Assembly (NCBI GenBank): GCA_024239075.1
Contig: JANBVI010000026.1
Coordinates: 1 to 64,000 of the forward strand
Origin: Fischerella sp. CENA71
GTDB taxonomy: Bacteria > Cyanobacteriota > Cyanobacteriia > Cyanobacteriales > Nostocaceae
DNA length: 64,000 bases
Direction: 5' to 3'
Part shown: piece after piece, positions 2,313 to 12,026 of the stretch
Layout: each line of letters begins with the position of its first letter
How positions within the stretch are numbered: the stretch's first letter is position 1
The notes under the pieces: model-generated
What the model was told of the DNA's origin: nothing
The model's input: the letters and a program-made list of their open reading frames with translations, nothing else
Database searches by the model: none
Position numbers and translations under genes: made by a program

Positions 2313-3064
2313 GAATTTTGCAGATGCTGTTATTTTAAAAAATCGGCAACAAAAACAGCTTGAGACTCTGTTCCCAAAGTGAAAGCATTATTTAGACAAT
2401 AATTTAAAAGCTTGATGCATGTAATCAGTCGTAAAAAACTAAGGTTGAATTTATAAACTATCTCTAAATATCAAGGAAGTCATACAATATGCGTGATTCT
2501 TGATGTAACTCTTCATCAAGAGGAAGACCAAAAAGTTCCTCAATCAAATATTTTAACTCAAATACACAATTTGTTATACCAATAATTAATTCGTAAAATC
2601 TAAACTTAAATGTTTCTCTTATCCTTTCGCGAATCACAATCACATCTTCTTCCGATAACTCATCTTCTCTTAACAAACCTAGCCACTTATTTTTATGCTC
2701 TTTGACAAAATCAATAATTTCTTTTTGCTTTTCCAAATCAGAATGAAAGTAGTATCCATTTATTACTAAATCAATTAGCTCAAATATTGTTTTATTTCCC
2801 AAATTACAGATTCCATCAGAGTGTTGAGATATATAATTGTTATATAGATTTTTATATTTGGTTGAATTTGCATACTTTCCCGTGTAAAATTTGAATTCAT
2901 CATAAATTGACTTTAAACGTGACGTATCCTCCCCGGTAAATGTTATTACTTCGCCCAATTTCTTATTGATTGTATCGAAAGAAATATCTCCCTTCATGAT
3001 AAATGGACGTAAGATTGTGAGCATTTCTATGAACACGTGCCGTTCTGGAACTATTGCCTTCGTT

Positions 3065-3375
3065 CACCCGTGACAGGTTAAGAAAAAGTGCATTTTGTCA
3101 ATCAGCTAAAATACTCAAAAAAAGTTAGTGAAAATGATAATCGTAGCTGGGGGTGGGGGAAGGAGGCGAGCGCCGCTCGCCTCCTTCCCCCAATATTTGA
3201 TTATCATTATCAAATAAGTTTTTGATAGGGCTAATCTTCTTCAAAACCAAGAGGGCAAGAGAATCAAGATTTAGGAGTAGTCAAATCTCTGCGGAAACCC
3301 GTCACCAAGCTGGATCTAGCCCCTTTTTTTGCACCCCCTTGACAAAGGAGCAATTCTCTTAACCTGTCACGGATG
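3065..3375. mobile_element. MITE, 311 bp, with 18-bp terminal inverted repeats and 9-bp target duplication
   Basis: The ends are CACCCGTGACAGGTTAAG (3065-3082) and the inverse of CATCCGTGACAGGTTAAG (3358-3375), matching at 17 of 18 positions. The element is flanked by the direct 9-bp duplication GCCTTCGTT (3056-3064 and 3376-3384). No transposase is encoded. Inside is a strong palindrome: an 18-bp perfect stem (3155-3172 with 3174-3191) around a single C, enclosed by a second 10-bp stem (3133-3142 with 3199-3208). The 9-bp duplication fits IS4- or ISAs1-type transposases, but the driving element is not identified here. Confidence 0.92.
3155..3191. repeat. Long GC-rich palindrome at the core of the MITE
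   Basis: GGGGGAAGGAGGCGAGCG at 3155-3172 pairs perfectly with 3174-3191. Outside it, AATGATAATC (3133-3142) pairs with GATTATCATT (3199-3208). A related element at 11749-12026 has the same architecture with a different stem sequence, so the fold rather than the sequence looks conserved. Confidence 0.9.
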
Positions 3376-3706
3376 GCCTTCGTTGATTTGTCACCTAAAG
3401 TCAATAGCATTTTAGGTTTTCCATTTTCAAAAAAATTGCATAAGGATAGCCTTTCAGCCTGATTGATAAACCTCTGAAGCTTTTTTTTCTCTTCTAAACT
3501 CAATTTTTCCTGCATTTTGAAATAATAATTCAGTTAGTAATCACGAAATATATAATAACCTAAATTTTATTACTGAGTAACTTGTTTAACTTACGTGTTC
3601 GCTCTCGTTTACATCCTCTCCAAAATTCCTCTCATTCAAGCTTTCTCTTCAAGTGATCGCACTGATATTCAAAATTGTGAATAATCAATTGCTAACATCC
3701 ACAATA

Positions 3707-11748: not shown

Positions 11749-12026
11749 CATTTGGAACAAGTTAAAAGTAAGTGAATTTTGTCAATACATCTTTGAGCAT
11801 AAATACATCTCTATAAGAATGATAATTGTAGCTAGGATTAAGAGGCGAGCGCCGCTCGCTTCTTAATCCACCCCTGTACTTGATTATCATTATTACTAAA
11901 TCTGGCAGGATGATTTGCTAGTTGCGCCCTTCCCTGAAATGCAGCGAGGCACTAAGGAATTTTTCTTTCAAGCACCTTTTAAAATCCCCTTGACAACTGC
12001 CTCACAACCTTAACTTGTGACCAATG
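11749..12026. mobile_element. Degenerate copy of the same MITE family (278 bp)
   Basis: The ends CATTTGGAACAAGTTAAA (11749-11766) and the inverse of CATTGGTCACAAGTTAAG (12009-12026) are diverged versions of the 3065-3375 element ends. The inner landmarks are in the same order: TTTTGTCAAT, AATGATAAT, GTAGCT, a long palindrome (11835-11869), GATTATCATTATT and CCCCTTGACAA near the right end. No clear target duplication remains. It directly abuts a transposase tail at 12030. Confidence 0.75.

Follow-up and report, generated by a model that had tools for sequence, protein, structure and literature searches.

A shortened copy of a resident IS4-family element lies within a gene for a 243-residue protein in Fischerella sp. 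CENA71

Within the window, the whole 64,000-nt stretch of DNA analysed here, a 311-bp element (Table 1) sits in a minus-strand gene whose 243-aa product has no known function. The element is flanked on both sides by the 9-bp sequence GCCTTCGTT, which occurs only these two times in the 64-kb window and whose reverse complement occurs there zero times; given the base composition of the window, two 9-bp stretches at set positions would match by chance with a probability of about 6e-6. The first 18 bases of the element and its last 18, read as the reverse complement, agree at 17 positions. These inverted repeats, the perfect 9-bp duplication and the resulting boundaries had been described in the initial annotation, and all of them can be read directly from the DNA. 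Between the ends lies a leader hairpin with an inner palindrome (3155-3191) and outer arms AATGATAATC and GATTATCATT, in a region (3115-3225) with a fold z-score of -8.2. The element had also been said to have no coding capacity. Stops are indeed present in all six frames, but 28 codons of an IS4-family transposase are kept, a feature that had been overlooked and that reveals the parent of the element. The net effect of the insertion on the target gene is an addition of 320 bp; residues 47 and 48 of the interrupted frame are coincidentally unchanged despite the element, and the frame then runs on to a stop after 83 codons.

Table 1. Coordinates of the interrupted gene, the 311-bp element and related features (positions without a prefix are those of the window; the 137-bp inserts lie outside it)
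Feature	Position	Strand	Basis
Interrupted gene (243-aa product, no known function), counted with the insertion	2464..3515	-	joined flanks and intact homologue
Upstream (5') gene piece, target duplication excluded	3385..3515	-	
Downstream (3') gene piece, target duplication excluded; contains ORF 2464-3036 from internal GTG	2464..3055	-	
Truncated 83-aa ORF, native to residue 46, then element-encoded up to the stop	3264..3515	-	
Target-site duplication copy GCCTTCGTT	3056..3064	.	sequence
Target-site duplication copy GCCTTCGTT	3376..3384	.	sequence
Internally deleted derivative (311 bp) of 1,758-bp IS4-family element	3065..3375	+ (parent transposase orientation)	C58 alignment
Left terminal inverted repeat	3065..3082	+	17/18 against right repeat
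Right terminal inverted repeat	3358..3375	-	pairs with left repeat
Leader hairpin, common to full-length copies	3133..3208	+	alignment and fold z-score
Deletion junction GG, absent from parent C58, between two kept CAAGAG copies	3254..3255	+	
Last 28 codons and stop, IS4-family transposase	3256..3342	+	
Second short relative, 278 bp, apparently older	11749..12026	+	14/17 inverted ends, leader hairpin
137-bp insert	L031:1447-1583 (= C58:7102-7238)		
137-bp insert	C30:158062-158198		
137-bp insert	C57:118496-118632		
137-bp insert	C53:61775-61911		
Partial insert in fifth, partial copy C62, 104 of 137 bp kept	C62:8364-8467		

Comparison of positions 2464-3515 with the organism's own genome, a 95-contig draft in which several copies of the family lie at contig ends, gave 31 matches: the window itself and 30 others, each confined to one side of the element, left or right. 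Four full copies of the parent element, 1,758-1,759 bp in length, are present (C58, C30, C57 and C53). The closest of them, C58, is identical to the 311-bp element at 307 of 309 bp: element bases 1-189 differ from it by two mismatches, bases 192-311 are identical to its last 120 bp, and at the junction an extra GG stands in place of 1,449 lost bp. The element has its ends, its leader hairpin, its 9-bp duplication and its transposase tail (QENQDLGVVKSLRKPVTKLDLAPFFAPP followed by the stop, the C-terminus of the transposase) from this parent and differs from it by the missing 1,449 bp, which include nearly all of the transposase.

The parent transposase matches DDE_Tnp_1, and an uninterrupted relative (L081) scores 150.3 bits against NF033592, the NCBIfam IS4 family model (cut-off 115), while the split halves of the C58 transposase score 47.3 and 72.8, both under the cut-off. 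The IS4 family carries the signature Y-x2-R-x3-E-x6-K, found as YRRRWRIEEAFHTVK in the translation of C58, and makes target duplications of about 9-12 bp; duplications of 9 bp flank both the window element and the full copy C57, the latter with its own perfect repeat GTTTTGGGC. At the other three full copies (C58, C30 and C53) we found no target duplication. C57 (L033) has an additional left end, and the DNA to the left of it reads the same as the right flank of C58 (ATTTGTGGG), which suggests recombination between copies or a misjoin. A search of the draft for an uninterrupted transposase of the parent family yielded none, with two copies (C39 and C40) cut by contig ends.

We consider it very probable that the 311 bp are an internally deleted copy of the resident IS4-family element and that the element entered the gene for the 243-aa protein, with a 9-bp target duplication and loss of the reading frame, a statement that leaves aside the order in which these events took place. 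We infer that transposition made the duplication, and we infer the order as follows. A resident element would have lost its interior while retaining both ends, and DDE-type transposition would have brought the short form itself, with transposase supplied in trans, into the target gene, making the 9-bp duplication and breaking the frame. We regard this as somewhat likelier than the reverse order, in which a full 1.76-kb copy inserted first and later lost 1,449 bp in place, so that the short form never moved. Such in-place loss, which competes with the favoured order only and not with the insertion as such, nevertheless has a considerable probability: the 311-bp copy was found only once, it differs from C58 at just two positions in 309 bp, and CAAGAG is present at both deletion breakpoints. 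However, neither CAAGAG copy was lost and GG lies between the two, and therefore simple slippage does not explain the deletion. Moreover, a solo right end elsewhere in the genome (C19, L035:3306-3425) shares its starting breakpoint with the 311-bp element, is identical to it over 120 bp and is preceded by unrelated DNA, a hint against a single, in-place origin of the breakpoint in the target gene. Against movement of the short form, no second 311-bp copy was found in the organism's own genome and none was seen in 59 relatives, for each of which up to 12 candidates were scored and 23 of which gave partial matches; that the short form moved may be so, and we put it forward as a proposal.

The locus had been taken as proof of a recent insertion. 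The perfect target copies, the two mismatches in 309 bp and the stop-free halves of the target gene all speak for recency, but they provide no date and are silent on which came first, the insertion or the 1,449-bp deletion, and recency is thus supported rather than proved.

Other members of the parent family have been shortened as well. The 278-bp relative in the same window has flanks that agree at 2 of 9 positions and a hairpin stem whose sequence has changed yet still pairs, and parts of this form are matched by seven plasmid records. Forms with different breakpoints, in which the transposase tail is retained, are found on plasmids of Nostoc sp. UHCC 0926 and Aulosira laxa NIES-50; the matches begin at element bases 65 and 21, respectively, the left ends being incomplete or too diverged. 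Among the related genomes, one (G031) has a shortened form (about 422 bp) whose left end has decayed and another (G008) an 898-bp form with both ends present and without target duplication. Taken together, the 278-bp, plasmid, 422-bp and 898-bp forms indicate that shortening happened more than once in the parent family.

When the flanks of the 311-bp element are joined with one target copy, they give a minus-strand frame of 732 bp, made up of 243 codons plus the stop, that reads without internal stop through the rebuilt junction (...STKAIVPERHVF...), as the initial annotation had proposed. An uninterrupted homologue is directly observed in Westiellopsis prolifica IICB1 (NZ_NAPS01000001.1), of the same genus; it is 65% identical over residues 1-243, carries STKAIVAERQVL at the junction and lacks the 311 bp, and the alignment spans the junction (STKAIVPERHV / STKAIVAERQV) with 37 of 46 residues identical upstream and 120 of 195 downstream. 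This one homologue agrees with the earlier expectation of an intact gene in a relative: it neither starts at the internal GTG at 3036 nor carries the element. Both halves of the target gene are free of stops outside the element, and by a simple count dN/dS against the homologue is 0.26 and 0.30 for the two gene pieces. The junction-spanning homologue and these ratios argue that a single protein under selection was split by the element, as judged from one homologue; the gene is presumably now non-functional.

The homologue is rare. Searches with the whole protein as query covered four further genomes of the genus and 217 further genomes of the family and found it in a single genome each time, the same one in both, and W. 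prolifica IICB1 was also the only locus confirmed in a scan of genome contigs, which relied on two N-terminal peptide patterns and is blind to homologues lacking the gene start. The same N-terminal patterns found no relatives in viral contigs, and none were found in plasmids or phages. The gene neighbourhood of the homologue differs from that in the window. The target protein gave no Pfam match over the cut-off, no PDB match and no convincing PADLOC match (one weak HTH row, E 0.0022), and its downstream piece alone gave no NCBIfam match; AlphaFold, run on the homologue without an alignment, returned a pLDDT of 41.

An open reading frame of 190 aa does begin at the GTG at 3036, and it could in principle be a separate native gene with the element lying between genes, but we think this highly improbable: the single homologue reads straight through, with the 37 identical upstream residues given above, and six-frame searches of 218 family genomes with the whole protein turned up no homologue lacking the gene start. 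Equally slight is the chance that repeat reads were misplaced inside the gene, to which a draft of many contigs with several family copies at contig ends would be prone, as a perfect 9-bp duplication around a 311-bp form found nowhere else is not what misassembly would be expected to produce.

The element had been called a MITE, a label that fits its anatomy and sits less well with its copy number. Type I prokaryotic MITEs are described as 50-500 bp long, with inverted ends, a target duplication and no working transposase, and as having considerable sequence in common with an autonomous IS (PMC10969869). The 311-bp element resembles that description in its length, its inverted ends (17/18), its duplication (9/9), its want of a functional transposase and its match to C58 (307/309 bp), and departs from it in that one copy was found and the transposase tail is kept. 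For one such element, MITEAba12, 1-22 copies per genome are reported (PMC10969869). The several dispersed short copies that are usual, though not strictly needed, for a type I MITE were not found here, with one copy in the organism's own genome and none seen in the 59 relatives, and this limits the label rather than the anatomy. The same source mentions disruption of mcy genes by MITEs in two Anabaena strains (PMC10969869); as there, a MITE-like element has presumably inactivated a cyanobacterial gene, but here the target codes for a protein of unknown function. The element is of the kind of a single-copy type I MITE derived from a local IS4-family element, and its insertion an ordinary kind of event.

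The parent transposases have a further peculiarity, outside the window. All four full copies contain a 137-bp, ORF-less palindromic insert placed exactly between LILLD and RGFY, at a codon boundary, and in each the transposase frame (222 + 213 codons) is open on both sides of it. Compared in pairs, the four inserts show 0-3 differences over their 137 bases, against 10-20% for the coding halves around them (dS 0.46-0.99, dN/dS 0.07-0.16). Among 30 transposase loci checked for the motif, copies cut by a contig end being left out of the judgement, 15 are uninserted, two, both in the organism's own genome, have the insert and 13 show no readable motif; five of the 15, close loci in relatives (L142, L143, L144, L149 and L166), carry the same LILLDRGFYHF with an empty site.

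Several accounts of this pattern fare poorly. That the four copies inherited the insert from a shared ancestor is unlikely given 0-3 differences in 137 bases against 10-20% in the coding halves, long-tract gene conversion is unlikely as identity falls right at the insert ends, and extreme constraint on the insert is unlikely in view of five related copies elsewhere in the same genome that are only 74-83% identical to it. Programmed frameshifting as the reason for the split transposase was dropped, the halves being separated by an insert absent from relatives. A HEARO / IscB RNA was also considered, but RF02033 is not among the 13 Rfam matches to the insert up to E = 10, all of which fall far under the gathering scores of their families, and the genome's single weak HEARO match, at C20, is a different sequence. 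Small differences among the four inserts could have been evened out by a short-read consensus.

Related elements of 112 to 472 bp occur in the genus, with ends near CTTCGATTCAATGAA and GGAGAAAACTGTGAC; the left end of the 137-bp insert itself is CTTCGATTCATAAAT. With at most three mismatches allowed, the left-end pattern is found in 7 of 210 family genomes, including all five of the genus, at some places without a recognisable right end, and by similarity one genome (G011) has relatives of the insert. In nine hand-picked sequences 96.3% of the cells of the long stem are paired and 9 of 18 pairs have changed on both sides, a covariation score that none of 500 shuffles reached. IS200/IS605-type palindromic elements (PATEs) have a palindromic interior, make no target duplication and share their ends with an autonomous TnpA element. 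The palindromic interior of the insert resembles theirs. Absence of a target duplication is likely: the right end reads GTGAC in most relatives, including L186 and L131, whose left flanks are TAC and TAA, respectively (L131 has a poor left end). Most left flanks also end in GAC, however, and one relative (L183) has TTAC / GTAAC, leaving a 3-bp duplication possible. The right-end pattern occurs at 15 places in the five genomes of the genus; of 10 examined, seven have a left end nearby and three have none, and none of those seven encloses a TnpA element. Nor were insert-type ends found near the two Y1 transposase genes of the organism's own genome.

Some relatives of the insert lie in or beside transposase genes. 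One, of 113 bp, sits between the tnpA and tnpB genes of an IS200/IS605 element (L129, G004:C1 around 4697948), where it may have inserted or may be linked to movement of that element. At L185:1502-1955 (G205) two near-identical relatives start 315 bp apart, in flanking DNA that by eye resembles an IS200/IS605 transposase gene. Two others adjoin matches to group II intron domains (L092:1619-1696 and L192:2703-2780).

Of the possible readings of the insert pattern, repeated precise insertion is the simplest; the insert may also be removed at the RNA level. On the first reading, the 137-bp insert would be a tiny site-specific parasite of transposase genes that inserted independently at LILLD|RGFY in four copies, perhaps under RNA guidance or with excision from the transcript. 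We hold this as a tentative idea, more doubtful than not, its odds being slightly reduced by the doubt over whether a target duplication is lacking. Were it correct, the 311-bp element would either be a relic from before the insert or have been carried by a transposase produced in spite of it.

The 311-bp case offers a clean, well-bounded break of a gene by a shortened IS, with parent, junction, duplication and one intact homologue in hand, and helps the annotation of this cyanobacterial lineage. If repeated homing of the 137-bp insert is true, it would matter more than the 311-bp case, as so small and gene-less an element is, in our view, not expected to find one site again and again.
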